Assembly (NCBI RefSeq): GCF_002813775.1
Contig: NZ_CP020370.1
Coordinates: 5,295,501 to 5,359,500, forward strand
Direction of reading: 5' to 3'
DNA length: 64,000 nucleotides
Origin: Candidatus Thiodictyon syntrophicum
GTDB lineage: Bacteria; Pseudomonadota; Gammaproteobacteria; Chromatiales; Chromatiaceae
Shown: positions 1,834 through 63,512 of the stretch, piece by piece
Layout of the letters: each line of letters starts with the position of its first letter
Numbering within the stretch: the stretch's first letter is position 1
Program-made: the position numbers and the translations under genes
Notes under the pieces: generated by a model
What the model was told of the DNA's origin: nothing
What the model saw: only the letters and a program-made list of their open reading frames with translations
Database searches by the model: none

Positions 1834-2166
1834 TTACGCCGCCGAACGCCGGGCGTCGCGAAGCGCGCGATACCACAGCGGATCTTGCTCGTGGGCGGCC
1901 TGGCGCAGTGCGCCCAAGGCGGCTTCGCCTTGGGCCAGATAGGCATCAACCTGCGCGCGATGGGCCAGATAATAGGTCAGCGCCGCATCGACCTGCTGCA
2001 GCGTCAAGACCGGGAAGGATTGGGCGATGGCCTCGGCACTCTGCCCGTTGAGAAAAGCCCAGACGATCGAATCCAGTGAGACGCGGCTACTGCGGACCCG
2101 ATAGGCGCCGGCGGTTACCTCGACTGACTGATCGCTTGCCGACTGATCGCTTATGGGTTGAGTCAT
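1834..2166 (-). CDS. DUF433 domain protein, probable antitoxin partner
   Basis: 110 residues from the ATG at 2166. The core VTAGAYRVRSSRVSLDSIVWAFLNGQSAEAIAQSFPVLTLQQVDAALTYYLAHR is typical of DUF433, a small winged-helix-like fold. It reads: strand, conserved S/D-x-I, G-x-S-x-E-x-I-x-x-x-F-P, then helix with A-L-x-Y-Y. The C-terminal 40 residues are alanine-rich and probably contact the partner. It is first in a two-gene leftward operon with the DUF5615 gene 13 bp downstream. A toxin-antitoxin role follows from pairing and family knowledge; nothing in the sequence proves toxicity. Confidence 0.75.
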   Translation of the reverse strand: MTQPISDQSASDQSVEVTAGAYRVRSSRVSLDSIVWAFLNGQSAEAIAQSFPVLTLQQVDAALTYYLAHRAQVDAYLAQGEAALGALRQAAHEQDPLWYRALRDARRSAA

Positions 2167-2203
2167 GTCCTCGCTCCTGATCTGCGCGCCCCCGGCGGCG
2201 GCA

Positions 2204-2425
2204 TCAGATAAGTATAGGGTCGCCGCGCACCGGCTGCCGGCAGGGCATCCAAGGCTGAAGCCCTGGACTCCGGCCCGGGGCGGCCAGCGCCAGGCGTAAA
2301 GTGCGCCGCGCGCAGACCAACACCTGGTTCTGCGGATCGGCAAGCAGGTCGGCAGCCACCGGCGACAGCCGGTGCCTGGCGGAGGCAATCCATATAAACA
2401 CGCAGGTATCGACGATCAGCCTCAC
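2204..2425 (-). pseudogene. Truncated VapC-like PIN toxin
   Basis: A GTG at 2425 overlaps the antitoxin stop (GTGA overlap) and gives VRLIVDTCVFIWIASARHR, then LSPVAADLLADPQNQVLVCA. This is the N-terminal third of a PIN toxin, with the first catalytic Asp in IVDT. PIN toxins are about 130 residues long and continue with a helix carrying a conserved Glu. Here homology stops after about 40 residues and the frame runs through a palindromic repeat (CCAAGGCTGAAGCCCTGGAC at about 2250; a second copy is at about 32167). The remaining catalytic acids are missing, so the product should be inactive. Confidence 0.65.
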
Positions 2426-2697
2426 TGTGCCTGCCCCGTCGTCGGCGTCTGCGCCAAACCGTTGAAGGCGGCAGCCAGGCCGTCCGGCAGCGGCTCCCAA
2501 AAGGCGTCCGGCAATTCGTAACCCTCCTCCCGGGGCCCCTGACCCAGGGGCCGCGGCACCGTACGGGGCGGCGCTATGGGGATCAACTCGGCGACCGGGA
2601 CATTACGCCGGGCGATCACGACCCGCTCACCGCGCGCCACGGCGGCAAGATAGCCCGAGAGCTTGGCCTTGATTTCATGAACATTTACTTGGATCAC
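2422..2697 (-). CDS. Phd/YefM-family antitoxin
   Basis: 91 residues. It begins MIQVNVHEIKAKLSGYLAAV and continues ARGERVVIARRNVPVAELIP. This is the standard Phd/YefM N-terminal DNA-binding fold: a strand, a helix ending in LSxYL, then a G-E-x-x-x-I-x-x-R-x-x-x-V-A-x-L-x-P segment. The C-terminal part (from about residue 50) is proline-rich, then acidic, as expected of the disordered toxin-binding tail. Its stop overlaps the GTG of the truncated PIN toxin. The antitoxin looks intact while the toxin is broken, so it may survive only as a DNA-binding autoregulator or as a relic. Confidence 0.8.
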   Translation of the reverse strand: MIQVNVHEIKAKLSGYLAAVARGERVVIARRNVPVAELIPIAPPRTVPRPLGQGPREEGYELPDAFWEPLPDGLAAAFNGLAQTPTTGQAQ

Positions 2698-3355
2698 GAT
2701 GTGGTCTGAGTGTTGGTTAGTAACTTAGTCATAAATCTAGCAGGTCAGCGCACACCTTGCTCCCCTACTTCCGCGTGGGAGCCGACGGCGCTTAGCTTAA
2801 CTAACGGCAGGGGCGAATGCCGCGTCTGCCCGGAAGCGTCCCCCGTGGGAGCGGCTTCAGCCGCGATGAGGCCAGGGCCGTTTGCGCGGTCGCGTCGCGG
2901 CTGAAGCCGCTCCCACCGGGTGCCGCCTTGCGCCGAACAGGGCATGGGGCCCGTCCTCTCGTTCCCACGCTCCGGAGATTGTGAAAGTATTCGAGCGTGT
3001 ACTCGTAGTGCGCTCCCAGAGGGCCTCCAGCAGCGTCGCAGCGGCCCTCTGGCCCGCCGGGGTTTCGCGCACGGTTGGGGGCTTGCGCCGGACGGGGCAT
3101 TCGCCCCGTCCGCAACGTTTTATCCGGGCTCGCGAACCAGCGCAACGCTTCGGCGAAGGAGTAAACGATCGGGACGGGGCGAATGCCCCGTCCCGCCCGA
3201 GGGGCCTGCGCCCCGTCCGGAACCTGCCGCAGCCGCCGCCAACCCTCACGACGGCCGGTCCGCAGGCATTTAAGGTACCGACGAGGCCGCCCCGGATTCC
3301 GCTGCGCTCCATCCGGGCTACGGGGGCCGGACTGGAAGCGAGCTTTAGCTCCGGG
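2698..3355. repeat. Composite intergenic repeat block, copy 2
   Basis: No gene seen. It contains an inverted repeat GTGGGAGCGGCTTCAGCCGC (about 2845-2865) with its complement (about 2896-2917), a partial GTTCCCACGCTCC unit near 2963, then copies of both large units of block 1 directly abutting: the GACGGGGCATTCG-bounded unit (3091-3202) and the unit ending in the ATGGAGCGCAGCG palindrome (3211-3323). The order of the two units is reversed relative to block 1. Confidence 0.75.
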
Positions 3356-3739
3356 CTAGGCCTTGTCCTTCCAGCCGAACCAGCCGCGCTTCTGCTGCAT
3401 GCCGGTATCGGGGTCGATGCGTTCCTTGGTATCGCGCCAGCCGAACCAGCGCCGCTGCTGCACGACCCCCGTCTGCGGGTGGATGCGGGTACCCATGTCA
3501 CTGTTCCACAAGAACCCGGTCTTCTGGAGTACCCCGGAATCCGGATCGATCCGCATCCCCGTGCCCCGCCACCCGAAGAGCCCGCGCTCCTGAATGGCAC
3601 CGCTCGCCTGATCGACCCGTCGATTGGTATTCTTCCAGCCGAACAGCCGTTCCTTTTGTACCCGCCCGGTATCGGGGTGGATGCGATAGGCGCCGTCGTC
3701 ATCAATGCCGAGCTGCTGTTTCAATTCATCTGAAATCAT
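3356..3739 (-). CDS. FGW-repeat protein of unknown function
   Basis: 127 residues, soluble, no signal peptide. After MISDELKQQLGIDDDG the protein consists of five tandem units of about 23 residues with the pattern R-I-D/H-P-D/Q-T/S-G-x-x-Q-x-x-x-x-F-G-W-K/R-x-T (FGWKNT, FGWRGT, FLWNSD, FGWRDT, FGWKDK). I do not recognise the family. The ATG at 3739 overlaps the TGA of the upstream TelA-family gene by four bases, so it is translationally coupled to it. By context it belongs to the TelA/XpaC operon and may be an envelope-stress accessory; that role is inference. Confidence 0.7.
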   Translation of the reverse strand: MISDELKQQLGIDDDGAYRIHPDTGRVQKERLFGWKNTNRRVDQASGAIQERGLFGWRGTGMRIDPDSGVLQKTGFLWNSDMGTRIHPQTGVVQQRRWFGWRDTKERIDPDTGMQQKRGWFGWKDKA

Positions 3740-4878
3740 GGTTGCTGCCTCAAGGCACGCGTGGTGTAACCTTCCCCTGGACTGCCCCCCTCGGACTTGG
3801 CCGAGGCGGCACTCAGGGCCCGGCGCAGGTCCCCCTCCAGCCGCTCCAACTCCTGACTGGCCAGGGCGCGGGCGCGCTTGCCCTCGTCGGCGATCTTGAG
3901 CCCCTCCTCGATGGTCGCAATCAGGGACTCATTGGCGTGGCGGACCACCTCGATGTCGAAGACCCCGCGCTCGATCTCGCGGCGCGCCTGGGTGTTGGCG
4001 CTCTTGAGGTTGTCGGCGTTGGCGCGGAGCAGGTCGTTGGTGAGATCGGTGGCCGCGCGCAGGGTGTCGGCGGCCTGACCGGAGCGGTAGATGGTGACGG
4101 CCTGGGCCAACTGCTGGCGCCATAGGGGAACAGTGTTGACCAGGGTGGAGTTGATCTTGTTGATCAGCCCCTTGTCATTCTCCTGCACGAGCCGGATGCT
4201 GGGCAGGCCCTGCATGGTGACCTGACGGGTGAGTTTGAGATCGTGGACGCGCCGCTCCAGGTCGTCGCGCACCCCGCGCAGGTCGCGCAGTTGCTGGGCC
4301 TGCACCATATCGCCGGCCGATTCGACCCGCGCGGTCTGGGCCGGAATGACCGACTCGTCGAGTTCGCGCAGCTTGGCCTCGCCGGCCTCGATGTACTGCT
4401 CCAGGGCGCGGAAGTAGTCCAGGTTGGCCTGATAGAGCCGATCCAGTGAGGTTACATCGGTGAGCAGTTGGGTCTTGTGACGCTCCAGGGTCCGGCCGAT
4501 GGCCTCGATCTGATCGCGCACCGCCTCGTATTCCTCCAGAAAGCGGGCGATCGGCCGCCCCTGGCCCATGATCCTGGCAAAGAAGCCGGGCTTGCGGTTA
4601 GGGTCCAGGGCCGCGACGTCAAAGCCCTTGAGCGTGGTAACCATCTCGCTCAAGGCCGCCCCGGCGGGGCCGATATCCTTGGCGCGCACGCCCTCCAACA
4701 TCCGGTCGGAGATCTGGGTCAACTGCTCCTGGGCCTTGGCCCCGAAGAACATGACCGAATGGCTATCGGTCAGGTCGAGTTCCCGGAGCAGGGCGGTGAC
4801 CGCCGGGTCCGCCGCGGTGCCGACGCTCGGGGTCAGGCTGGTGGGGCTGGTCTGCACCAAATCGGTGTGTGCGGTCAC
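3736..4878 (-). CDS. TelA/KlaA-family toxic anion resistance protein
   Basis: 380 residues from a GTG at 4878. GGAGG lies eight bases upstream (4886-4890), which decides against the TTG at 4917. The protein is long, helical and soluble. Characteristic TelA segments are visible: GFDVAALDPNRKPGFFARI, then RFLEEYEAVRDQIEAIGRTLERHKTQLLTDVTSLDRLY, ending in a TNDLLRANADNLK-type helix and a basic tail. The family was named for tellurite resistance, and many members are linked to envelope stress or colicin tolerance. A role in tellurite is not shown here. It follows an XpaC-family gene after 122 bp, a common pairing, and is coupled to the FGW-repeat gene. An 11-bp inverted repeat sits in the upstream gap. 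Confidence 0.85.
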   Translation of the reverse strand: MTAHTDLVQTSPTSLTPSVGTAADPAVTALLRELDLTDSHSVMFFGAKAQEQLTQISDRMLEGVRAKDIGPAGAALSEMVTTLKGFDVAALDPNRKPGFFARIMGQGRPIARFLEEYEAVRDQIEAIGRTLERHKTQLLTDVTSLDRLYQANLDYFRALEQYIEAGEAKLRELDESVIPAQTARVESAGDMVQAQQLRDLRGVRDDLERRVHDLKLTRQVTMQGLPSIRLVQENDKGLINKINSTLVNTVPLWRQQLAQAVTIYRSGQAADTLRAATDLTNDLLRANADNLKSANTQARREIERGVFDIEVVRHANESLIATIEEGLKIADEGKRARALASQELERLEGDLRRALSAASAKSEGGSPGEGYTTRALRQQP

Positions 4879-35449: not shown

Positions 35450-36000
35450 TGTTAGTATTCGGCGCTTGCGCTGGCGAGCGAAAGACTCAAGAACGTTTTC
35501 GTCGGCGGTGCGCGCAGCCCTGAGGCCCCGTGCGCGCCGCGTCGGCGCCGGTCGCCGGACGAGCCCGGCGGGCCAAGGTTTAAAGAAAGGTTCGAGATGG
35601 CGGTTCGATAGGCCGGCTCCCAATGGGCCGGTGTCGGTGCAGTCCGCGGGTCGACGTGGATTCTACACCCTGGCCGCCCGGCGCGCCCCGCGGCGCAAGG
35701 CACGCGCATGGTCGACCCCCAGACACCGCTTTAACGGCGGGACGCCGCCCAGACCGGGGGCGCCCCAAATAAACGCGGTCACGCCTCGAGGCGCGACCCT
35801 AACACTTAGAAATCGGACGCGCATGTCCTGCCCCGGTGCGGCCCGCGATCATCGCGGCCCGCCGGCGAGACACCGGACCCCGGCCGCGCGCCGCCGCCCT
35901 TGCGGCGGCGCCGCCCGGCCCCGCGGCGGCTGACGGCCGCCGCGTGCCGCCGGGGCTGGCCATCGGCGGGACCTGCGCCCGGAATAAGAAAAGGAACAAG
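35450..36000. promoter_or_regulatory. rluC/rne divergent region and rne 5' leader
   Basis: 551 bp between divergent starts. In E. coli the long rne 5' UTR binds RNase E for autoregulation, so a long leader is expected here; I cannot identify the hairpin by eye. The stretch is GC-rich with an A-rich ribosome-binding segment (AAAAGGAACAAG) right before the rne ATG. No gene seen. Confidence 0.4.
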
Positions 36001-39000
36001 ATGAAAAGAATGCTGATCAACGCGACTCAGCCGGAAGAGTTGCGCGTGGCGACCGTCGATGGTCAAATCCTCTATAACCTCGATATCGAATCCCCCGGCC
36101 GCGAACAGAAAAAGGCCAACATTTACAAAGGCACCATTACCCGTGTCGAGCCGAGCCTGGAGGCCGCCTTCGTCGACTACGGCGCCGACCGCCACGGCTT
36201 CCTGCCGCTGAAAGAAATCTCCCGCATCTATTTCGAGCCCGACACCGCCAAGCCCGGAACCCGCATCAATATCAAGGAGGTGGTGCGCGAGGGCCGCGAG
36301 GTGGTGGTGCAGATCGACAAGGAGGAGCGCGGCAGCAAGGGCGCGGCGCTCACCACCTTCGTCTCGCTCGCCGGCCGCTATCTGGTACTGATGCCCAACA
36401 ACCCGCGCGCCGGCGGGGTGTCGCGCCGCATTGAGGGCCAGGACCGCAGCGAACTGCGCGATGTCATGAGCCAGCTCGCCATCCCCGACGACATGGGGCT
36501 CATCGTGCGCACCGCCGGTGTGGGCAAGAACACCGAAGAACTCCAGTGGGATCTGGACTACCTGCTCCAGCTCTGGCGCGCGATCGAGTCGTCCGCTGCC
36601 GGGCGCCGCGCGCCCTTCCTGATCTATCAGGAGAGCGACGTCATCATCCGCTCCATCCGTGACTACCTGCGGGTGGACATCGGCGAGATCGTGATCGACG
36701 ACCGGGCCGTCTATGACCGGGCCGAGGCCTTCATGCGCCAGGTGATGCCGGGCAACCTGAAGAAGCTGCGGATCTACCAGGACGAGGTGCCGCTCTTCAC
36801 CCGCTACCAGATCGAGAGCCAGATCGAGACCGCCTTCCAGCGCGAGGTGCGCCTGCCCTCCGGCGGCTCCATCGTCATCGATCACGGCGAGGCCCTGACC
36901 GCCATCGACATCAACTCCTCGCGCGCCACCAAGGGCGCGGATATCGAAGAGACGGCGCTCAACACCAACCTGGAGGCCGCCGACGAGATCGCCCGCCAGT
37001 TGCGCCTGCGCGACTTGGGCGGGCTCTTCGTCATCGACTTCATCGATATGACCCCGCCCAAGAACCAGCGCGCGGTGGAAGACCGGCTGCGCGATGCCTT
37101 GAAGCACGACCGCGCCCGCGTCCAGGTGGCACGCATCTCCCGCTTCGGGCTGCTGGAAATGTCGCGCCAGCGCCTGCGGCCGTCGCTGGGTGACTCCACC
37201 ACCAGCGAGTGCCCGCGCTGCCATGGGCAGGGCAAGATCCGCGGCGTCGAGTCGCTCGCGCTGTCCATCCTGCGCATCATCGAAGAGGAGGCGATGAAGG
37301 ACAGCTCGGAGCGCATCATCGCCCACCTGCCGGTCAGCGTGGCCACCTTCCTGCTCAACGAAAAGCGCCGCGCCATCCTGGAGCTCGAGGCGCGTCAGGA
37401 GGTCCAGGTCCTGTTGCTGCCCAACAAGCACATCGAGACCCCGGACTATCAGATCGAGCGCCAGCGCAGCCAGGACCTGACCAAGCAACCCGACGAGCGG
37501 CCCAGCTACGAGCTGGCCGTCCTGCCCCAGTCGGTCGGCGGCACCCACGCGCGGGCGAGCGAGTCGACCCGCAGCGAAGAGCCGACGGTCAAGGCCATCA
37601 CCCCGACCTCCCCCATGCCCACGCGGGAACCGGCGCCCGAGCCGGAGCGGCCCGATAACGCCTGGACCGCCCGCGCCCCCGAGCGCGAGCCCGCGCGCTA
37701 TGCCGATCCCCAGGACCCCCAGACCCAGGATCGACCGGCCGCGGAAAACCTGCTCAAGCGCATCTGGACCGGGCTCTTCGCCCCCCGCGTAGAACCCATC
37801 GCGCAGCCGCCCATTCGTCCGATCGACACCGAGGAGCGGGCCAACCGGACCGAGCGCCCGCCGCAGGGCGGCCAGCGCCGGCCCGACCAGGGTCAGCGCC
37901 CGCGCGGCGAAGAGGGCCGACGCGAGGGGCGGCGTGACGAAGGTCGTGACCAGCGCCCGGGGGCGGCGGCACCCGCCCAGGGTCGCGGCGAGCCGGAGCG
38001 CCCGCGTACCGGCGGTCGCGGGGCCGAGCGCCAAGGCGTGCGGCCGGGCGAGCGGCAGACTGAGCGGCCCACCGAGCGCGGAGCCGAGCGCCCGGGTGAC
38101 AAGCCCGCCGATCGGACCACGGGTCGGACCCCGGATCGGATCGCGGAACGGCCCGAAGACCAAGCGGCCGACCGGGGCGCCGAGCGCAACAGCGGCCGCG
38201 AGGCCCAGCGCGCCCAGCCGCGGCCGGACGGCGCGCGGCCCGAGACCGGGGAGCAACCGCGTGAGCGCCGTGAGGGCGAGCCGCGCAGCCGCCGCGGCGG
38301 TCGCGGTCGCGGGCGGCGTGACGAGCCGGGGGTCGGCGATGAGGCCCGCGCCGCCGGTGGTCAGCGGGAAGCTGCCCCTGAGCCTGGTCGGGAGCCCAAC
38401 CGGGAGCCGACCGGCGCAACCCCACGGGAGGCCCGGTCCCCCGGCCAGGCGCCGCGGGGGCACCAGACCCGCGAGCGCACCCCGGCGGGTCCGCCCGCAG
38501 CCGACCAGGACGCGGCGCGGGAGCGGCCCTGGACCGACCAGGCACGCCACACCGCCGCGGGCGAATCCGCCCCGGACGCGGTGAACCCTGGCGCACAGCC
38601 CCCGGTCGAGACCCTGGTCGCGGTCAGTGCGCTCGCCTTGACCGAGGTCGCCGACCAGTCCGCGCCCGGCGACCAGGCACTGCGGACGCCGGCCCTGGAC
38701 GCGGCACCCGTCGCCCCGACCCCGGCCACCGCCCCGGTCGGCGACGACACAGTCGGCGCCTTCGAGGCCCCCGCCGCGCCCCCGCACTGGGACCGGGACG
38801 CGGCCACGGCCGAGCGCTCCGCACACCAGCACGCCGCCACCACGGCCCCCGACCCCTGGGCCCGGACCGCCATCCCCACCGCCCCGGAGGAGGACCACTG
38901 GGACGACGACGACTACGACACCTACCCGGTCTATCCCACGGCGGCGGCCACTGACGCGGTCCCGGCCGGTGCGGCCGGGCCGCACCTCACCGCCGACCAG

Positions 39001-39903
39001 GGCGCGGAGTTGGAGGGCGACGAGGACGAGTCCGACACCGACCCGGGCGATGGGGACGACCCCGCCGAGGGCACCGACGCGGCCGTCCAGGACCCGGCCG
39101 GCCGCCCCCGGCCCCGGCGTCGCCGCGGCGGCCGCAATCGGCGGCGTCCCGGCGCCGAGGCCGCCCGCGCCGCGGCGACCGACGATGCCACTGACGAGAC
39201 GACGCCGGCCAGCGCCGAGAGCGCCGACGAACCGCGGAACGACCTCGGCCCACGACCAGGTGCCCCGGACGCGGCACCCCAAGGCCCGGTCGTGCCGCCG
39301 CAGAGCGCTTTGACCCCGCCCGCACCAGGCGGCGAGTCCCAGCGCGCGCCGGATGGCGACCAGCCCGGCGAATTCGTCGCTGTAACCCAGCCGGCCTTGG
39401 GCGCGGTCGCGGCCACGGACGCAGGGGCCCCGTCATCGGCCAGCGACATGGATGCCGGACAAGCCCCGGCGCCGGTCGCCGAAACGACGCCCGAGGCAGT
39501 GCCGCCCCCAGTCGCCGCAGCGCCGGCCGAGCCTACACCGGTCGCCGAAATGCCGGCCGATCAGGCGCCGCCCCTGACCCCGACCCCGGCCGCGGCCCCG
39601 GCCGACCATGCGCCAGCCCTGACCCCGGTCGCCGAAGCGCCTGCGGAATTGACACCGCCCCCGGTCGCCGAAGCACCGGCCGAGCCCGCACCGCCACCGA
39701 CCCCGGTCGCCGAAGCACCGGCCGAGCCCGCGCCACCCCCGCCCCCGGTCACCGCCGCGCCGGCCCCGCTCGCCGACGTACCCGCCGAGCCGGCGCCCGT
39801 CGCCGCCACGACCGCGGAGCAACTGTCGCCCCCGGCACCCGCCGCTGACGCACCTGCCGAGCAAGCACCGACTCCGGCCCGCGACGAGCACGCCGCCCTC
39901 TGA
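36001..39903 (+). CDS. rne: Ribonuclease E with very long disordered tail
   Basis: 1300 residues from the ATG at 36001 (AAGGAA upstream). The S1 domain is at about 36-120 ([30 protein letters not shown]). The catalytic DNase-I-like domain follows, with Asp in TAIDINSS and FVIDFIDM. The Zn-link CPRCHGQGK is near 403, and the small domain ends at about 500. From about 515 on the protein is disordered and of low complexity: an Arg/Glu/Gly/Pro-rich stretch (about 600-880), an acidic stretch with DDDD, a second basic patch [15 protein letters not shown] near 1040, and a final 170 residues of degenerate [13 protein letters not shown]-type repeats. It is 240 residues longer than the E. coli enzyme. 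It degrades mRNA and matures rRNA/tRNA and should scaffold a degradosome. Confidence 0.96.
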
Positions 39904-55320: not shown

Positions 55321-56799
55321 TTGAACCCGCTCAAGCGCCTCGCCTCCCAGACCGCCATCTACGGGGTCAGCAGTGTCCTGGGACGCTTCCTCAACTACCT
55401 GCTGGTACCGCTGCTGACCTACACCTTCGCCCCGGCGCAGTATGGTGTGGTAGCGGAGTTCTATGCCTACATGGGCTTTCTGGCGGTGCTTCTCACCTTC
55501 GGGCTGGAGACCGGGTATTTTCGCTTCCGCGCCGGCGGCGAGCAGGCGCCGGCCGTGGTCTACGCCACCGCCCTGCGGGTCATGCTGGTCGCGAACCTCG
55601 CCTTTCTGCTCGGCGCCTGGCTGCTGCGCCAGCCGGCCGCGGATCTGCTGCGCCACCCGCTGCACCCCGAGTACATCTGGTGGTGCGCCGCCATCCTGGC
55701 CTTCGACTCCATCGGTGCCATCGCCTTCGCACGCCTGCGGGCGGAGAACCGGGCGGTCCGCTTTGCCCTGATCAAGGTGCTCGAGATCGCGCTGAACGTG
55801 GGGCTCAACCTCTTCTTCATCCTGGGGCTCAAGGCGGCCTTCGAGACCGACCCCGGCTCCGTGCCCGGCCGCCTGTGGGACCCCGCCATCGGGATCGGCT
55901 ATGTGTTCATCGCCAACCTAGCGGCGAGCCTGCTCAAGCTCCTCATGCTGGCACCCCAGTTCCGGGGTGGGCTGGCCGGGTTCGATTCCGCCCTCTTGCG
56001 CCGCCTGATCCGCTATTCCCTGCCGATGGTGATCATCGGCCTGGCGGGCATCGTCAATGAGATGCTGGACCGGGCGGCGCTCAAGTACCTGCTGCCCTAT
56101 GACGACACCACCAACATGGCGCAACTCGGCATCTACAGCGCCTGCTACAAACTCTCGATCCTGATGACGCTCTTCATCCAGGCCTTCCGCTATGCCGGCG
56201 AGCCCTTCTTCTTCGCCTATGCCAGGCACGAGGACGCCCGCCGCGTCTATGCCATCGTGCTCAACTGGTTCGTCATCTGCTGCGTCTTCCTCTTTCTCCT
56301 GGTCACCCTGTTCCTGGACGTCTTCCAGTATTTCGTCGGCGCGGCCTATCGGGAGGGGCTCACCGTGGTCCCGGTGCTGCTGTTCGCCAACCTGCTGCTC
56401 GGCATCTATGTGAACCTCTCCATCTGGTACAAGCTCACCGATCGGACCCTGCTGGGGGCCGCGGTCTCACTCATCGGCGCGGCCATCACCGTCGGCGTGC
56501 TGCTCACCCTGATCCCGCGCTACGGCTATGCCGGAGCGGCCTGGGCGCACCTCGCCTGCTACAGCGCCATGGTCGTGATCTCATACCTGCTGGGGCGGCG
56601 TTACTATCCGGTCCCCTACGACCTCAAGCGAGTCTTCGGGTATCTGGCCCTGGGGCTCGGGCTCTACGGGGCGAGCCGGGTCCTGGTGGACGCTCTGGGC
56701 TTCCCGCCGGCGCTCGTGGGGCTCGCACTGATGGTCCTGTTCTTCGCGCTGGTGTTCGCCGTTGACGGGCGGGCGCTGATCCGCCGCCGCGGGACTTGA
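55321..56799 (+). CDS. Wzx-like polysaccharide flippase (MOP superfamily)
   Basis: 492 residues from a TTG at 55321, with 12-14 membrane helices. The start LASQTAIYGVSSVLGRFLNYLLVPLLTYTFAPAQYGVVAEFYAY is a classical Wzx/PST beginning. A central RYSLPMVIIGLAGIVNEMLDRAALKYLLP and the C-terminal YGYAGAAWAHLACYSAMVVISYLLGRRYYPVPYD repeat the fold. It probably flips lipid-linked sugars for O-antigen, capsule or exopolysaccharide. No glycosyltransferases are adjacent, which is unusual for such a gene. Confidence 0.88.
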   Translation: MNPLKRLASQTAIYGVSSVLGRFLNYLLVPLLTYTFAPAQYGVVAEFYAYMGFLAVLLTFGLETGYFRFRAGGEQAPAVVYATALRVMLVANLAFLLGAWLLRQPAADLLRHPLHPEYIWWCAAILAFDSIGAIAFARLRAENRAVRFALIKVLEIALNVGLNLFFILGLKAAFETDPGSVPGRLWDPAIGIGYVFIANLAASLLKLLMLAPQFRGGLAGFDSALLRRLIRYSLPMVIIGLAGIVNEMLDRAALKYLLPYDDTTNMAQLGIYSACYKLSILMTLFIQAFRYAGEPFFFAYARHEDARRVYAIVLNWFVICCVFLFLLVTLFLDVFQYFVGAAYREGLTVVPVLLFANLLLGIYVNLSIWYKLTDRTLLGAAVSLIGAAITVGVLLTLIPRYGYAGAAWAHLACYSAMVVISYLLGRRYYPVPYDLKRVFGYLALGLGLYGASRVLVDALGFPPALVGLALMVLFFALVFAVDGRALIRRRGT

Positions 56800-56825
56800 G
56801 GCCCGGCGCGGATGCGCTATGCTGA

Positions 56826-56984
56826 CCCGAATACGCTGACCGGCGCCCGGTCGGGACCCTGGCGACCCTCTACCCGGATGACTCGCTCGTCCGCCTGGCG
56901 ACCCGCCGCGGCGTGCTGGTGATGGGCATGGGCGACGAGACCATGGATATACTCAATCCCCAGGCGCTGGGGGCCGATGGTTGA
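56826..56984 (+). pseudogene. Possible C-terminal gene fragment
   Basis: A 52-codon open frame without a start codon. Its second half (YPDDSLVRLATRRGVLVMGM, then GDETMDILNPQALGADG) looks like real protein. The family is not recognised. It is probably the tail of a decayed gene between the flippase and the lipoprotein operon. Confidence 0.25.
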
Positions 56985-56998
56985 GCCTTGGCGGTATC

Positions 56999-57721
56999 CT
57001 AAACGCCTGTGCGGCCCTGCGTCGGGGCCAAACTCCGCGCGCAGCGGTCGGCGGCAGTCTGCATCACCTCCTTGAGCCGCTGCCCCCCGTTGACCTGAAA
57101 ATCGTGGCGATCGATCTGGAGTGCCGGATCAGGCGTGAGGGAAGAAACTGCGCAGGCGTTCTGCCACAGAATCACCCCCGTGGGGCTAAGGATGCGCGCA
57201 TGGGCCTGGAGTATGTACTGGTAGGTCGCCCACGCCAGTGGCCGATAGGCCAGCAGGTTGATATCGGTTGCGACTTCCAAGGTATAACGGCCCGGGGCCT
57301 GGACCTTTCCTGCCGCGGCCGTTCCGGAACGCAACTGCGTAACCAAATCCAGGTTCAATGACAGCTCTTTGCCAAGAATATCCCGCAACGATGAAGCGAT
57401 CAGTTCGCTCGGACTCGGCGGCGTCGACGGCCGCCCTTCAGGGCGCGTCAGGGCATCCGTTGCAGCGGTTAAACCAACTGCAATGATCGCTTCGGCCGGG
57501 CTCGTTGCAGTGGCGATCGATGACCTTCCCACGCCACCCGCAGTCATCACGTTCAGCGGTGGCCCCGTCATTGCGATGACGGCAATTTTCTCGGCTTTAA
57601 GATTCACCGGCAACCCACTCCCGTCCGGCTTCACCGGGGATACCCCGGTGCAGCCGGACAGCAGGGCGAGGGTAAACGCCGTCAACCTCAGGCTTGCGTG
57701 CATCTTCATTGCCTTATTCAT
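56999..57721 (-). CDS. Lipoprotein of the RCC1/Lon-like operon
   Basis: 240 residues. The signal ends in the lipobox LALLSGC (Cys near 24), so it should be lipidated and probably sits in the outer membrane. The mature start has KIAVIAMTGPPLNVMTAGGVGRSSI, then SPSELIASSLRDILGKELSLNLDLV, APGRYTLEVATDINLLAYRPLAWATYQYILQAHARILSPTGVILWQNACAVSS. The layout resembles lipoproteins that form small beta-domains with a final helix (RLKEVMQTAADRCARSL). It is the last gene of a five-gene leftward operon, 19 bp after the RCC1 gene. Unknown function. Confidence 0.75.
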   Translation of the reverse strand: MNKAMKMHASLRLTAFTLALLSGCTGVSPVKPDGSGLPVNLKAEKIAVIAMTGPPLNVMTAGGVGRSSIATATSPAEAIIAVGLTAATDALTRPEGRPSTPPSPSELIASSLRDILGKELSLNLDLVTQLRSGTAAAGKVQAPGRYTLEVATDINLLAYRPLAWATYQYILQAHARILSPTGVILWQNACAVSSLTPDPALQIDRHDFQVNGGQRLKEVMQTAADRCARSLAPTQGRTGV

Positions 57722-57740
57722 CGTCCAACGATTGGATTGT

Positions 57741-59984
57741 TTAGGGGGCCACCACGACCACCCGTACCGGGCTGCGGCGCTCGCTGCTGGTGCCGTCGCC
57801 GAGCTGGCGGCGCAGGTTGCGCCCCCAGGTCCAGAGGCTGCCGTCGGTCTTGCGGGCCAGGCTGTGGTTCATGCCGACCGCCGCCGCCGCGACGGCGCTC
57901 AGGACCCGGGTCGGAATCGACCGATCGGTGTTGGTGCCGTCGCCGAGCTGGCCGTGCTCATTGTCCCCCCAGGCCCAGAGGGTAGCGTCGGTCTTCAGGG
58001 CCAGGGTGTGGTACCAGGCGCTGGTCACGGCCTTGACCCCGGTCAGGACCTGGACCGGACTCGCGCGATCCGTGGTGGTGCCGTCGCCGAGCTGGCCATA
58101 GGCGTTGTGCCCCCAGGCCCAGAGGCTGCCGTCGGTCTTCAGCGCCAGGCTGTGCCCCCAGCCGACCGCGACGGCCGCGACCTCGGTGAGGATCAGGCCC
58201 GGGGTCGGCTGATCCGTGGTCGAGCCGTCGCCGAGCTGGCCATATTTGTTCCAGCCCCAGGTCCAGAGGCTGCCGTCGGTCTTGAGCGCCAGGCTATGGC
58301 CGGAACCCGCCGCTACGGCCGCGACACCGCTCAGAACCTCGACGGGGCTTGAGCGATCCGTGGTCGTGCCGTCGCCGAGCTGGCCATCCCAGTTATTCCC
58401 CCAGGCCAGCAGGCGACCGTCGGTGGTGACGGCCAGGGTGTGGTAGGTCCCGGCCGCCACGACCGCCACGCCGTCCAGGACTTGCACCGGACTCGGACGT
58501 TTGGTGGTGGTGCCGTCGCCGAGTTGGCCGTAGCGGTTCCAGCCCCAGGCCCAGAGGCTGTCGTCGGTCTGGATGGCGAGACCATGCCGCCAGCCGGCCG
58601 CCACGGCCAGGGCCCGGCCGCGGATCTGGACGCGCCGCACGCCGGCCTCGGGTGGATCATCGGCGTTCTGCCCCCAGACCCAGAGTACGCCGTCGGTGCC
58701 GATGGCCAGACTGCGGTACTCGCCCGCGGCAATCCGCTGCAGGTCGTGGGGATTGTCGGGCGGGAGCAGGATCCGGACGGGACTCAGGCAGGCGGTGGTT
58801 CGCCCATTACCAAGTTGGCCCTTCTCGTTGGCCCCCCAGGCCCAGAGGTCGCCCTGGGTGTCGATGGTCAGGGTGTGATGGGCCCCGGCGGCCACGGCCG
58901 CCACCCCGGTGCGGACCAGGATCGGACTGGCGCGATCCGTCGTGGTCCCGTCGCCGAGCTCGCCATGCTGGTTCCACCCCCAGGCCCACAGGCTGCCATC
59001 GGTCTTGATGGCCAGGCTGTGGTTCAGACCGGCCGCCAGCGCCGCGACCTCGGTCGTAACCTGGACCGGACCGAGGCGATCCGTGGTGGTGCCATCGCCG
59101 AGCTGACCAAAGCCATTCACCCCCCAGGCCCAGAGACTGCCGTCGGTCTTGAGCGCCAGGGTGTGCCAGGCGCCGGCGGCAACGCCCGCCACCCCCGCGG
59201 CCAAGACCTGCACCGGAGCATGCCGATCCGTGGTCGTACCGTCACCGAGTTGGCCGGATTCGTTGATCCCCCAGGCCCACAGGCTGCCGTCGGTCTTGCG
59301 CGCCAGGCTGTGCCAACCGCTGGCGGCCACGGCCGCCACCCCGGTCAGCACCTGGACCGGTGCCAGTCGATCCGTGGTCGTGCCGTCCCCGAGCTGGCCC
59401 TTCTCATTGGCCCCCCAGGCCCAGAGGCGGCCGTCGGCCTTCAGGGCCAGGGTATGATGGGCGCCCACCGCCACGGCCGTGACCCCGGTCAGGACCTGGA
59501 CCGGTGTCAGGCGGTCGACCCCGGTCCCGTCACCGAGTTCGCCACTGCGGTTCACCCCCCAGGCCCATAGACTGCCGTCGGTCTTCAGCGCCAGGGTATG
59601 CAGCGCACCGGCGGCCACGGCCGTGCCCCCGGTCAGGACCTGGACCGGCGTCAGGCGGTCGGTGTGGGTGCCGTCGCCGAGTTGGCCCCGCTCGTTGGCC
59701 CCCCAGGCCCACAGACCCCCGTCGGACGCAATGGTGAAGCCGTGTCCGTACCCGCCGGCAACCCGCTGCATACGCAGGTCGCCGACCGCCGCGACTGCGG
59801 GCGGCGCGGACGGCACCGGCTCGGGTTCGACCCCGGCAACCGGGGTGGTCCCGGGCGGCACCGGTGACTCCGGCGCCTGGGTGTGACCGGGCGAGAGGTT
59901 CAGAAGCAGCACGAGAGCGTAGGCCAGTCGCGCGATCCTGGGGTTCCTCGGTCGGCAATGATGGCGCGCGGGGCGGATCTTCAT
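57741..59984 (-). CDS. Secreted 14-repeat RCC1 (double beta-propeller) protein
   Basis: 747 residues from the ATG at 59984; longer frames extend into the upstream gene. The signal peptide (RIARLAYALVLLLNLSPGHTQA) is followed by a Pro-rich linker, then 14 RCC1 units of about 47 residues with the core G-S-L-W-A-W-G-x-N-x-x-G-Q-L-G-D-G-T-T-T-D-R-x-x-P-V-Q-V-L-T. Units 7 and 8 diverge (GNGRTTACLSPVRILLP; WVWGQNADDPPEAG), which splits the protein into two seven-bladed propellers. Such proteins bind partner proteins or surfaces; no catalytic site is seen. It starts 26 bp after the Lon-like gene and is followed after 19 bp by a lipoprotein gene. The ligand is unknown. Confidence 0.88.
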   Translation of the reverse strand: MKIRPARHHCRPRNPRIARLAYALVLLLNLSPGHTQAPESPVPPGTTPVAGVEPEPVPSAPPAVAAVGDLRMQRVAGGYGHGFTIASDGGLWAWGANERGQLGDGTHTDRLTPVQVLTGGTAVAAGALHTLALKTDGSLWAWGVNRSGELGDGTGVDRLTPVQVLTGVTAVAVGAHHTLALKADGRLWAWGANEKGQLGDGTTTDRLAPVQVLTGVAAVAASGWHSLARKTDGSLWAWGINESGQLGDGTTTDRHAPVQVLAAGVAGVAAGAWHTLALKTDGSLWAWGVNGFGQLGDGTTTDRLGPVQVTTEVAALAAGLNHSLAIKTDGSLWAWGWNQHGELGDGTTTDRASPILVRTGVAAVAAGAHHTLTIDTQGDLWAWGANEKGQLGNGRTTACLSPVRILLPPDNPHDLQRIAAGEYRSLAIGTDGVLWVWGQNADDPPEAGVRRVQIRGRALAVAAGWRHGLAIQTDDSLWAWGWNRYGQLGDGTTTKRPSPVQVLDGVAVVAAGTYHTLAVTTDGRLLAWGNNWDGQLGDGTTTDRSSPVEVLSGVAAVAAGSGHSLALKTDGSLWTWGWNKYGQLGDGSTTDQPTPGLILTEVAAVAVGWGHSLALKTDGSLWAWGHNAYGQLGDGTTTDRASPVQVLTGVKAVTSAWYHTLALKTDATLWAWGDNEHGQLGDGTNTDRSIPTRVLSAVAAAAVGMNHSLARKTDGSLWTWGRNLRRQLGDGTSSERRSPVRVVVVAP

Positions 59985-60010
59985 GGTGCTGTTCCTGATA
60001 CCCGGATGCT

Positions 60011-61276
60011 TCACTGGTGATCGCCGCACACCGCGAACTCCTCGGCCGCGACGTCCAGAAACTCTCTGAGAACAGGCTGGGTCGCGCCGTCCGGAGCCGG
60101 CAGCGGCGCGCGCGTGAGCACGGCAAAAAAGCGCCCCTGCGCCGGGCGGCCGAAGGGGGGGTTGATCCGCGCGGGGAGCGTCAGCGGCAGCCGCTGGTCC
60201 TTCTGCACCAGCCAGGGCCTGGGGTCCGACCGCAGATCCTCGAACACCTGGCCCGGTGCATCGAAATAATAGACATAGAGCCAACCGGCCGCGCCGGGCC
60301 TGACCTCCAGCGAAATCGCATCGGCTGCGGCGAGACAGGTGCCGCTCGGACAGTGGCGCGGGGAGCGATCACCGTTGCGGTGTGCCACGCTGCAGTCGGC
60401 CCTGAAGGTCACCGGCAGCGACCCCCAGCAGCGCTCGATGACGGCGGGGTCCGAGGACAGGCGCGAGCAAGGTCCGGACAGCATGGCATAGAGGATCAGC
60501 AGGCCGCCGATCAGGAGCGTCACCAGGGCTGCCGCCAACCGGGGCTTGCGCCAACCGGGGCGCAGGACGGGTTTGCGCCAGTTGAGGGCACCGACGATCG
60601 CTCGACGGCGACTGCCCAACCAGCCGCGCCAAGGCGATCCAAACGGGACTGGACCCGGCTCGCAACGCGCCTCCGGGGGCCAGTCCGACCCCATCTCCGC
60701 CAGGGCCGCCACCCCCACGCACTGGAGACCTGACGCGATCAAGCCGTGCAGCAGGCGCTGCTCCTCACTGGTCAGGGCCGCCAGATTCTCCCGCGCCAGG
60801 ACCAGCAGCGGGGCCGCGTGGGGTCGCTGTGCCAGCGCGTGCGCCAGCGCCGCGAGCTTCTCGGCCATTCGCCCGACCGGGACGACCGCGCCGTCGCGCT
60901 TGACCTGGCCACTGGCGATCAAAGTCCGGCCCGCGAGCCGCGGGAGGCAGCCGCGGGCCAGCTTGTCCGCGAGCACGAGCGCCAGGGTGTAGCTCGCGCC
61001 GCAGACCTGGGACCCGTCGGCCACCACCAGTTCCACCATGAGCTGGCCGTCGGGGACCGCCGACCGACAGCCGCCGCACAGGCGTTCGGTCCGGATGGCG
61101 GCCTCGATCTCCTCGTCCTTGCGCAGTTCATGGGCCGTGGGGCCAGCCAGGGTCATCCGCGTGTAGTACCCCGGCTGACCCCAATCGATGACGCGCACCG
61201 CCGCCAGGCCGTGCTCGCGGTTGCCGGCCAGCGGGAAATGGACCAAGGCGTGGCGCGGCCCCGGCTCCCTGGTCAC
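60011..61276 (-). CDS. Membrane protein with Lon-protease-like and DUF4384-like domains
   Basis: 421 residues from a GTG at 61276 that overlaps the upstream stop (GTGA). The N-terminal half resembles the Lon (S16) proteolytic fold: VADGSQVCGASYTLALVLADKLA, then RTLIASGQVKRDGAVVPVGRMAEKLAAL, then APLLVLARENLAAL. These line up with the Lon segments around the catalytic Ser and the G-x-V-x-P-V-G-x-x-x-E-K-L Lys. The Ser position carries VCG, so a Cys may replace it or activity may be lost. A membrane helix (RLAAALVTLLIGGLLILYAML) is near 250-275. The outer part AISLEVRPGAAGWLYVYYFDAPGQVFEDL looks like DUF4384. Assignments are by eye and remote. It is third in the operon. Confidence 0.55.
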   Translation of the reverse strand: MTREPGPRHALVHFPLAGNREHGLAAVRVIDWGQPGYYTRMTLAGPTAHELRKDEEIEAAIRTERLCGGCRSAVPDGQLMVELVVADGSQVCGASYTLALVLADKLARGCLPRLAGRTLIASGQVKRDGAVVPVGRMAEKLAALAHALAQRPHAAPLLVLARENLAALTSEEQRLLHGLIASGLQCVGVAALAEMGSDWPPEARCEPGPVPFGSPWRGWLGSRRRAIVGALNWRKPVLRPGWRKPRLAAALVTLLIGGLLILYAMLSGPCSRLSSDPAVIERCWGSLPVTFRADCSVAHRNGDRSPRHCPSGTCLAAADAISLEVRPGAAGWLYVYYFDAPGQVFEDLRSDPRPWLVQKDQRLPLTLPARINPPFGRPAQGRFFAVLTRAPLPAPDGATQPVLREFLDVAAEEFAVCGDHQ

Positions 61277-61821
61277 TGCGGGACCAATTCCAGACGGACG
61301 CGATGGACCCGTTGCCACAGGGGTTCGTCGCGTTGCCAAAAGCCCACCAGCTCACCGTAGGCATCCGGGTGTCCGGCCAGCCAGACCAGGCCCTCGCTAT
61401 CGACGAGTTGGAAGCCTCCGGGGGTCGTGACGATGAGCGCCGGCGCGACCGCCACGGTAATGCGCCAGGCCTGGCCATCCAGGTCGGCCGGGATCAAGGC
61501 GACGCTGTAGTGCTCCCCCACCAGGTGCAGGGGGCCGACCGCGGGGGTCTCGTCCGCCGCCGCCAGCAACTGGAGCGGCTGAGGGCCCAACCCCTGCACC
61601 TGCCAGGCGGCCAGTGAGCGCGCCCGCTCGCGGTGGCGCAGCCACGCCAGGCGGTCACGCGTGACGGACGAGCGGGCCAACAGGCGGCGCTGCGGCGGCG
61701 TCAAGGGCGCTCGAGCGTGCAGCACCGCCCCCAGGCGCTCGTCGTCAAGCCGCTGGGTGTCGTCGGGGTCCGCCGCCGCAATGGCATCGAGGACGTCTTG
61801 GATCAGTCGGCCCTTGTTCAT
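61273..61821 (-). CDS. Unknown soluble protein of the RCC1/Lon-like operon
   Basis: 182 residues: MNKGRLIQDVLDAIAAADPD, a helical start with LTPPQRRLLARSSVTRDRLAWLRHRERARSLAAWQVQGLGPQ, then a beta-rich half (GPLHLVGEHYSVALIPADLDGQAWRITVAVAPALIVTTPGGFQLVDSEGLVWLAG). No membrane segment and no cysteine pair. The N-terminal helical part before a beta-domain is reminiscent of anti-sigma or adaptor proteins, given the sigma-like protein encoded 11 bp upstream. That is a guess. It overlaps the next gene by four bases. Confidence 0.65.
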   Translation of the reverse strand: MNKGRLIQDVLDAIAAADPDDTQRLDDERLGAVLHARAPLTPPQRRLLARSSVTRDRLAWLRHRERARSLAAWQVQGLGPQPLQLLAAADETPAVGPLHLVGEHYSVALIPADLDGQAWRITVAVAPALIVTTPGGFQLVDSEGLVWLAGHPDAYGELVGFWQRDEPLWQRVHRVRLELVPQ

Positions 61822-61832
61822 GCTCTACTACC

Positions 61833-62783
61833 TCAGGACTCCAGATCGCGGCGCACCCAGGGGGCAATCTTGCGGACCCCGGCGGCGACGCGGTTGCGAT
61901 GGGTCTGGCGGGTATGGCCGTAGCGCTCTTGAAAGGCACGGTCGGACATGGGCGGCACCAGAACCCGGTACTCCAGGATCAGGGCGGCCCGCTCGGGTGG
62001 CGTCAGTCCCGCGGGGCTATCCGGATGATCGATGTAATAGTCGATGGTCTCACCGAGATCGTCCGGCAGTTGCGCGGCCAAGGCCGGATCATCCTGCATC
62101 TCTCCTATATCCAGGTGGGGCAGGAAGGCATAGAGATAAGCGAGTACGCCATCGACAGTGGCGATGTCGTCGAGCGCGGGGCCAGCCCCGGGGCGCTGCG
62201 ATTGCGCGAGGACGGCAGCCGCGAGCCAGGCGGGGTCCTCCAGCCGCCGCAAGGTCCAGACGCGCTCGGGACCCGTCAGGTCGACCGCCGCCCGCTCCAG
62301 GTCGCGGCGCACCCGGGCGAGCAGGCGCTGGATGCGCACCCAGTTGCGCAACCGGTGCTGCCCGGTGGGACCGTCGATCTCGAATCGCGCCTCGTAGAAA
62401 TAGTGCGACAGGGTCTGCCAGAGGATCGCCCGGGCCCGCGCATCCTCGCCCTGGCCCCAGGCGGCACAGAGCGCAGCGAGGCTGCGCGCGAGCTGCCCGG
62501 CCAGCCGCGGCGGGCTGTGGAAGAGGCGCAGGCACTGCGCCCAGCACGAATCCGCCCCGGGGCCATCCTCACCGAGCCGCGCGGCGCGGATGCGCCCCTC
62601 CAGGTCCAGGCCCACATGACGGGTGATCCAGGTCTCGACTGAGGCCGCCAGGTGCGCCGGATCGCAGCCGGCGCACCCATCGCAGATCGCATCCAGCAAG
62701 ACCTGGGCGTGGGTGACGACACAGACGCGGTGCAGCCGGCGCTTGTAGTCGCGCCATTGACCCTGCAGGAAGTCGTAAACCAT
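61833..62783 (-). CDS. Unknown helical protein with possible sigma-region-4-like C-terminus
   Basis: 316 residues from the ATG at 62783; longer frames have no support. It is mostly helical. The N-terminus has a Cys-rich patch (ICDGCAGCDPAHL). The C-terminus, AGLTPPERAALILEYRVLVPPMSDRAFQERYGHTRQTHRNRVAAGVRKIAPWV, has the spacing of a helix-turn-helix of sigma region 4 or a transcriptional activator (RAFQERYGHTRQTHRNRV). A real sigma region 2 is not evident. It is first of the five-gene leftward operon, followed after 11 bp. A regulatory role is inference. Confidence 0.55.
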   Translation of the reverse strand: MVYDFLQGQWRDYKRRLHRVCVVTHAQVLLDAICDGCAGCDPAHLAASVETWITRHVGLDLEGRIRAARLGEDGPGADSCWAQCLRLFHSPPRLAGQLARSLAALCAAWGQGEDARARAILWQTLSHYFYEARFEIDGPTGQHRLRNWVRIQRLLARVRRDLERAAVDLTGPERVWTLRRLEDPAWLAAAVLAQSQRPGAGPALDDIATVDGVLAYLYAFLPHLDIGEMQDDPALAAQLPDDLGETIDYYIDHPDSPAGLTPPERAALILEYRVLVPPMSDRAFQERYGHTRQTHRNRVAAGVRKIAPWVRRDLES

Positions 62784-63143
62784 CTGCGCAGCTCCCGTCC
62801 CGGGCGAGTGTCCGCACGGTCGCGGCGCGTGAGGCCCCGAACGGGGTGACGCCGTGCCCTGTCGACAGCAAGGGGCTATTCTCCAAGTAGTTATTTTTTC
62901 GGAGAGCACCCGCGCCCGCCATCAGAAGCGCGCTACGGACGACCGTCCTGAGGATCAGGATACCTTGCGACGCGGGGCCGTCAAGGGGGTCTTGGTCATA
63001 ATACCGGCCGCTGGCCCGAACGGCGCAGAGCGCGTGACACCGCTGGCGAGATTGGGCAAACGCAAACGATGGGTTTCGCTGCGCTCTACCCATCCTACGG
63101 GACTGGAGCAATGTCGCGAGAGCGGTACCGGCGAGCGCTCGCC
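62784..63143. repeat. Intergenic region between dsrR and the five-gene operon
   Basis: 360 bp. A GATGGGTTTCGCTGCGCTCT...ACCCATCCTACG unit (about 63067-63100) is a relative of the ATGGAGCGCAGCG palindromes. An AT-rich patch near 62880-62900 may hold the operon promoter. dsrS, which follows dsrR in Allochromatium, is not present. Confidence 0.45.
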
Positions 63144-63458
63144 TCAGTCCTCGGTCGGCGGCTGGTAGCTGGGATCTTGGGGGTTAAGGAAGATGAAGTG
63201 GAACTGCCCCGGCGCGAGTTCGACATAGTCCATGGTCGCCTGATTGAGCAGCGGCACCTGCTCCGGGGTCATCACGACCTCGATTGCGCCACACTTGATG
63301 CGGATGTCGTCCTCGGTCGCCTCATCGAACCCGATCCGGTAATCGAAGGCCCCGTCGGGCTGCCGCTGGGCCGCCAGGCGCAACGCCAAGCCCTCGGCCT
63401 CGCCCTGCTGCGCGGCCGCCTGGACCTGCGCCGCCGCGGCCTTGGTTAGTGTGAACAT
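63144..63458 (-). CDS. dsrR: DsrR, cysteine-less A-type (IscA-like) protein
   Basis: 104 residues. The HesB/IscA fold is visible: FTLTKAAAAQVQAAAQQGE, LALRLAAQRQPDGAFDYRIGFDEAT, CGAIEVVMTPEQVPLLNQATMDYVEL, FIFLNPQDPSYQPP. The C-terminal C-G-C that binds iron in IscA is missing (NPQDPSYQ), and the only Cys is in IKCG. This matches DsrR of Allochromatium vinosum, an A-type protein without Fe-S function that is needed for normal Dsr protein production during sulfur oxidation. Its position right after dsrN is that of the dsr operon. The gap to dsrN (204 bp) holds an inverted ATTTGCG pair. Confidence 0.85.
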   Translation of the reverse strand: MFTLTKAAAAQVQAAAQQGEAEGLALRLAAQRQPDGAFDYRIGFDEATEDDIRIKCGAIEVVMTPEQVPLLNQATMDYVELAPGQFHFIFLNPQDPSYQPPTED

Positions 63459-63512
63459 TTCGCACCCATTAAAAATGATGTCTTATGAGGATCAACCCAA
63501 AAAGAGGATTTG

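Follow-up and report, generated by a model that had tools for sequence, protein, structure and literature searches.

What is the function of a compact set of genes that follows the dsr sulfur-oxidation cluster of Thiodictyon syntrophicum Cad16T? These genes lie in a stretch of 64,000 nucleotides (the window) of this organism, which has a genome of 7,738,984 bases and a chromosome of 6,837,296 bases. Five minus-strand open reading frames (ORFs), here genes A to E (Table 1), are separated by 11, -4, 26 and 19 bp at the junctions A-B, B-C, C-D and D-E; reading the ORFs of the window reproduced the coordinates and gaps given in an earlier interpretation that used the DNA letters alone (the sequence-only reading). 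The conserved unit is three of these genes, A-B-C. We propose, with a probability of roughly 0.55, that A-B-C is a protease-operated sigma switch that is wired like the CRISPR system CalpS/CalpT/CalpL but lacks a SAVED domain and is anchored in the membrane. The observations behind this proposal are the gene order, the co-occurrence of the three genes, sigma region 4 in A, a Lon-like signature with its catalytic dyad in C, a DUF4384-like domain, and a conserved promoter.

A conserved three-gene unit in Chromatiaceae

Genes A, B and C are present in the same order in 7 of 210 Chromatiaceae genomes, and B lies between A and C at all seven loci (L007, L022, L030 and L031 belong to genomes G004, G007, G148 and G135, and the Cad16T genome is G000). 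The sequence-only reading had proposed a system of five genes and co-occurrence in Chromatiaceae as a check; the neighbourhood of A, B and C was recovered in this way, but D and E are not generally linked to them. Among 55 related genomes, matches were found to C in 4, to A in 5, to B in 5 and to E in 2. In the 210 Chromatiaceae genomes, the B profile matched 11 genomes at E <= 0.01, seven strongly and four weakly (G114, G574, G136, G166), and the A profile matched 8, namely the same seven and one weakly (G153). Because the profiles used (A5, from all seven loci, and A4, from six, without G006) contain the matched loci, the very low E-values of these searches are partly self-matches.

The relationship also holds in searches free of this circularity. 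Single-sequence queries found G007 among the 55 genomes at E 1.1e-9 (A) and 1.5e-14 (B), and a B profile lacking G148 and G135 found both among 146 genomes, at E 1.1e-48 and 1.6e-24. When one group at a time was left out, E-values were <= 1e-26 for B, <= 3e-11 for C and <= 5.5e-10 for A, except for the A gene of G135, at 0.016 compared to a best shuffle of 3.8. This gene (L031) had no BLASTP match at 1e-4, and given its weak tie to the others we assign it to A mainly from its position. Across 369 genomes of the class, B had a strong match only in its own genome and weak matches in four (G045, G201, G285, G299). Weak B matches in G101 and G128 were rejected as copies of the module after their neighbours were read and no A or C was seen.

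Genes A to D look like real genes under purifying selection, judging from dN/dS (nonsynonymous to synonymous substitution) ratios of 0.21-0.45 in nine pairs (against L006 and L007, and L008 for B). A sigma-70-type promoter upstream of A is the single match in window positions 56700-63500, where 0.4 would be expected by chance. The same TTGACG-16-TATCCT, or its TATTCT variant, also precedes A in L006, L007 and L008, although the L007 copy falls outside the aligned slice. A pattern derived from the relatives has this site as its sole match in the window, and 17 of 100 shuffles give at least one match. The site and its counterparts fit a transcript predicted to start at A, short of proof.

Gene D has the RCC1 repeats that the sequence-only reading had seen in the fourth protein (13 stretches of PF00415 and 14 of PF13540; 491 bits against a cut-off of 21.7). 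It follows C in G000, G001 and G004, its orthologues in L006 and L007 are 71-72 percent identical to it, and it had no match in L022, L030 or L031; D thus goes only with the copies of A-B-C at the dsr cluster. A second RCC1 protein of 1043 amino acids, with CARDB and InlB-like repeats, is encoded near the dsr-linked module of G004 (L007 1120-4251). Gene E is essentially private: among the 55 genomes it matched its own genome and one relative, the latter over 30 residues, and we rejected it as a member of the conserved system.

The proteins of the unit

The product of gene C resembles Lon proteases. With a profile built on the N-terminal 180-210 residues of seven copies, the best PDB matches were Lon proteases (E 0.0013), and CalpL matched weakly (E 0.53). 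In an alignment with E. coli Lon (score 24.9, compared to at most 19.1 in 100 shuffles), Ser95 and Lys140 of C fall on Ser679 and Lys722; both are invariant in all seven aligned copies, the distant ones being 24-29 percent identical to the window copy. Invariance of the dyad across such divergence speaks against the explanation that the Lon-like domain is a pseudo-enzyme that only binds, with B as an adaptor and not a substrate. We consider this explanation quite improbable, even though the similarity to Lon is remote and the Pfam Lon model was reached by none of six copies. The same six did not reach the Pfam models for SAVED or AAA, C gave no CARF match, and no AAA+ ATPase module is seen in the cytoplasmic part of C, which has approximately 245 residues. 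In PADLOC, the L030 copy matched CRISPR-Lon (E 0.00095), CARF-TM-Lon and SAVED-Lon at E-values of about 0.001-0.003, the L031 copy matched CRISPR-Lon at E 0.018, and the window copy matched nothing; the SAVED-Lon matches cover the Lon part alone.

In the six copies tested, a membrane helix follows the Lon-like domain, with a mean hydropathy of 1.77-2.56 (2.43 over 19 residues in the window copy, which has a second, weaker hydrophobic stretch of 1.73 at residues 175-193, within the Lon-like domain). No hydrophobic stretch precedes the Lon-like domain, which is therefore predicted to be cytoplasmic. Beyond the helix, three of the four dsr-linked copies (those of the window, G001 and G004) carry a domain that matched DUF4384 at 95.6 percent, with a score of 48.4 compared to at most 20.6 in 200 shuffles (three copies against 11 DUF4384 sequences). 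The DUF4384 Pfam model had no match in C and none in the Cad16T genome, and we call the domain DUF4384-like because the profile-profile match is clear but the Pfam gathering score is not reached. In L022 and L030, C ends at the helix, and in L031 it has a short tail. The predicted topology, with the Lon-like part inside and the DUF4384-like part outside, agrees with the sequence-only reading of a Lon-like, DUF4384-like, single-pass protein that has a possible protease fold inside and a ligand-like domain outside.

Gene A, first described as encoding a putative DNA-binding or sigma-like protein, ends in sigma-factor region 4, as indicated by both structure and profile comparison. Sigma factors are the best structural matches of its model, and A has the region 4 helix-turn-helix domain expected of a sigma factor of the extracytoplasmic function (ECF) type; the Pfam model is not reached. 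We infer that A works as a sigma factor. Pfam and NCBIfam gave no matches for A, and a PADLOC match of the L030 copy alone to JetB (E 0.0052) was taken as chance. Sequence searches of the PDB with A gave nothing significant, the region-4 profile having a single match, sigmaE at a non-significant E of 1.5; the trimmed region-4 alignment (A8) aligns the subfamilies poorly.

The predicted structure of B (pLDDT 81) consists of helices at residues 3-75, a weakly predicted stretch at approximately 76-97, and a beta-sandwich at 98-181. Hydropathy revealed no hydrophobic stretch, B had no match in Pfam, NCBIfam or PADLOC, and Foldseek with the model likewise found nothing. B would be the inhibitor of A and the substrate of C.

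A proposed sigma switch and its alternatives

In the switch that we propose, the helical N-terminal domain of B would keep A inactive, and B would dock on C through its beta domain. C would sit in the inner membrane, and its Lon-type Ser-Lys peptidase domain, which would need no ATP, would lie in the cytoplasm. The dsr-linked C would probably be triggered through its DUF4384-like domain outside the membrane, and the short copies through some other envelope partner. Once triggered, C would cut B, most likely near residues 76-97, and the freed A would activate transcription, with envelope or secreted products, D for instance, as its probable targets. Both the trigger and the regulon are what we infer from the arrangement.

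The proposed wiring has close counterparts. Like CalpL/CalpT/CalpS, A-B-C would combine a Lon-type peptidase without an AAA+ ATPase, a protein of two domains of which the C-terminal one is small and rich in beta structure, and a sigma-like factor. In that type III CRISPR-associated system, CalpL is the Lon protease, with a SAVED domain that binds cyclic tetra-adenylate, CalpT is the anti-sigma factor, whose C-terminal domain docks on the protease, and CalpS is the sigma factor. Unlike that system, C has no SAVED domain that we could find, is membrane-anchored, and has a DUF4384-like domain outside in three copies, and B is smaller (182 amino acids compared to 33 kDa) and has no sequence similarity to the two anti-sigma factors tried. 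In Craspase (Cas7-11-Csx29) with Csx30 and CASP-sigma, a protease is likewise considered to free a sigma factor through cleavage of a soluble inhibitor (PMC10028731), but it is an RNA-guided CHAT protease instead of a Lon-like domain and the locus is a CRISPR locus. With Lon protease (S16), C shares the Ser-Lys dyad and the surrounding pattern and differs in having no visible AAA+ part, in its membrane anchor, and in not reaching the Pfam model. RseA/DegS/sigmaE and FecR/FecI also pass an envelope signal to a sigma factor through an inhibitor. In those systems the anti-sigma factor itself spans the membrane, whereas here the protease does.

Two CRISPR systems are known in which a sigma factor is released when a protease cleaves its soluble inhibitor. 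The statement in the sequence-only reading that no described system has this composition is too broad for the three genes, with their close resemblance to CalpL/T/S, and holds for a non-CRISPR, membrane-anchored form, of which we found no description in our searches of the open-access literature (subscription papers are largely outside it). The locus tags of the module had no mention that we could find in the papers searched on this organism. In our analysis, what would be new is this non-CRISPR, membrane-anchored form; the Calp-type wiring was already known, and the part of B as substrate and inhibitor is proposed by us.

Several results weigh against the switch. None of A, B and C reaches a Pfam family of the kind that would be expected. 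For A, Foldseek alone gave nothing significant with the model, and 32 of the 50 VIA rows, as full-length alignments, had a root-mean-square deviation above 15, at which such alignments mean little, and the comparison gave no clear sign of region 2. The hhalign probabilities of A against sigma factors are low, at 15-34 percent, and with the three dsr-linked A proteins alone the sigma score is 25.6 against a best shuffle of 25.1; the shuffles keep composition and not helix patterns, and the controls did not include an unrelated helix-turn-helix family. The hhalign probability of C against E. coli Lon is 7 percent. The N-terminal domain of B scored 9.0 against RseA and 8.9 against FecR, below the top scores of 14.0 and 16.4 from 60 shuffles each, and had no similarity to any PDB chain. 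CalpT10 ranked 36th in the structural list for B, behind unrelated sandwich folds, SOD1 and MATH domains among them, and the best PDB match of B by sequence is a Contactin fragment (E 0.0086). Finally, since two C copies have no extracytoplasmic domain, a sensor would lie outside the core.

The seven loci occur in three kinds of setting, which bear on two further explanations. Four copies follow dsrN or dsrR (G000, G001, G004, G006), the G007 copy (L022) lies among TrbI/TraK conjugation genes, and the G148 and G135 copies (L030 and L031) are near CsgG and FlgT-like genes. Gene A of G006 is spread over two frames, which may be an assembly error or a genuine lesion; the match to C in this genome ends at residue 330 near the contig end, with the end of E and fragments of D on another contig. 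The setting with CsgG and FlgT-like genes would fit an operon for envelope assembly or maintenance, in which C would serve exported proteins, for instance D, as a membrane scaffold or protease and A would regulate the operon as an ordinary DNA-binding protein. CsgG genes are above the Pfam cut-off near both L030 and L031, the FlgT_N gene is above it in L030 and below it in L031, and LPP20-like genes are below it; L022 and L030 share a further neighbour without a Pfam match, and D adjoins C where the module is dsr-linked. A-B-C is constant, however, while the envelope genes around it vary, the Lon-like domain is predicted to face the cytoplasm, and A is structurally closest to sigma factors, and we regard this explanation as unlikely. 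The sequence-only reading had offered cytoplasm-to-surface signalling or surface assembly; the former guess has fared well, and the latter is the less likely rival.

A 466-500 amino acid protein without a Pfam match is encoded divergently to A in L022 (12740-14140) and L030 (10005-11507), at 33 percent identity, and is a possible membrane partner for modules with a short C. A tetratricopeptide repeat protein in L030 (13311-14990) has weak N-terminal matches to NHL and Vgb-lyase below the Pfam cut-offs, indicating a possible propeller near this second version of the module.

L030 also contains a helicase (1922-4819), three genes from C, that matches DISARM DrmD in PADLOC (E 1.8e-96), and the A-B-C copy there may be in a defence neighbourhood. 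Together with the conjugation genes around L022 and the defence effectors that are the nearest PADLOC models of the Lon-like domain, this would fit a switch for defence against phages or plasmids that resembles CalpL/T/S but no longer has its CRISPR input. The helicase led us to rate this explanation slightly higher, and envelope assembly slightly lower, than before. We still consider a defence switch improbable: C has no SAVED or CARF match, four of the seven copies are at the dsr cluster and L031 is near CsgG genes, and the helicase was the only match among ten neighbour proteins scanned with PADLOC, leaving nine without one. By eye, no cas genes were recognised near A-B-C (the window, L006, L007, L008, L022, L030 and L031), the PADLOC scan covering the ten neighbours only. 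No relative of A, B or C was found in plasmids, and 62 stretches of viral contigs that fit a pattern included no relative of B.

The dsr cluster and the place of dsrS

In the window, the module follows dsrN and a dsrR-like gene on the same strand, at the 3' end of the dsr cluster. We named dsrN, dsrR and dsrS by order and similarity among these genomes and by published gene order, given as dsrABEFHCMKLJOPNRS (PMC3368242). The order dsrN-dsrR-dsrS is present in G002, G005 and G007, and relatives have the dsrR-like gene between dsrN and dsrS; in G001 and G004, dsrR is also absent from the stretch examined. Whole-genome searches found dsrS in all three congeneric genomes without the module at this site (G002, G005, G007), compared to none of the four with A-B-C at the dsr cluster. 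Genomes with A-B-C elsewhere keep dsrS: G007, whose copy is divergent, G148 (63 percent identity) and G135 (50 percent). G003, of the same genus, had no dsrN match and stands outside this comparison. A passage of the Cad16T genome paper (PMC5944118) describes dsrS as missing and as non-essential for sulfur oxidation, with the absence unexplained there. The presence of dsrS in relatives and its absence alongside dsr-linked A-B-C suggest that the module occupies the place of dsrS (the interval between the dsrR-like gene and A in the window is 62784-63143), and one event may lie behind the four dsrS-less genomes, all of the same genus.

Gene A is not itself dsrS, as a relative's dsrS had no match in the window or the whole genome. 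A search for dsrS remnants in the gaps gave short matches only, the best of 26 bases (E 2e-4) between the L008 gap and a stretch downstream of dsrS in L068, which we read as a dispersed repeat. An element between dsrR and gene A at 63068-63095, GGATGGGTAGAGCGCAGCGAAACCCATC, is also dispersed-repeat-like and has a single copy in the window. Elsewhere in the window, a long ORF at 35836-39903 reads as ribonuclease E-like, with a very long Pro/Ala/Arg-rich tail, and coincides with a peak in G+C content of 0.79.

Table 1. Positions of genes A to E and associated features in the window
Feature	Position	Strand	Description
Gene A	61833..62783	-	316 amino acids; sigma-like; C-terminal residues ~234-312 are sigma region 4
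Gene B	61273..61821	-	182 amino acids; two domains; proposed anti-sigma factor and protease substrate
Gene C	60011..61276	-	421 amino acids, GTG start; membrane-anchored Lon-like protein, DUF4384-like domain predicted outside
Ser95 codon of C	60992..60994	-	aligned with Lon catalytic Ser679
Lys140 codon of C	60857..60859	-	aligned with Lon catalytic Lys722
Membrane helix of C, residues 248-266	60479..60535	-	by hydropathy
DUF4384-like extracytoplasmic domain of C, residues ~317-391	60104..60328	-	by profile comparison
Gene D	57741..59984	-	747 amino acids; RCC1 repeats; signal-peptide-like start (by reading)
Gene E	56999..57721	-	240 amino acids; lipobox LSGC at residues 21-24; unconserved
dsrR-like gene (IscA type)	63144..63458	-	PF01521 at 26.9 bits against a cut-off of 26.3; last dsr gene before the module; neighbour, not member
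Sigma-70-type promoter TTGACG-16-TATCCT	62957..62984	-	173 nucleotides upstream of gene A

A tentative extension of the sigma-switch proposal, which we hold to be doubtful, is that A-B-C is a CRISPR-independent sister of the Calp system that lets an envelope signal reach transcription by way of a Lon-type peptidase tethered to the membrane, and that it replaced dsrS in one branch of Thiodictyon, tying the oxidation of stored sulfur, a store located outside the cytoplasm, to a sigma factor. According to one account, approximately 26 percent of the bulk inorganic carbon is fixed by T. syntrophicum in the part of Lake Cadagno where it lives (PMC6413534). If the proposed switch is real, the dsr cluster of this Lake Cadagno bacterium would have a regulator that can be tested. 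A version that works without CRISPR and is anchored in the membrane would also show the core switch to be a general signalling component, able to be combined with different sensors, and would give a clue to the origin of the Calp system.
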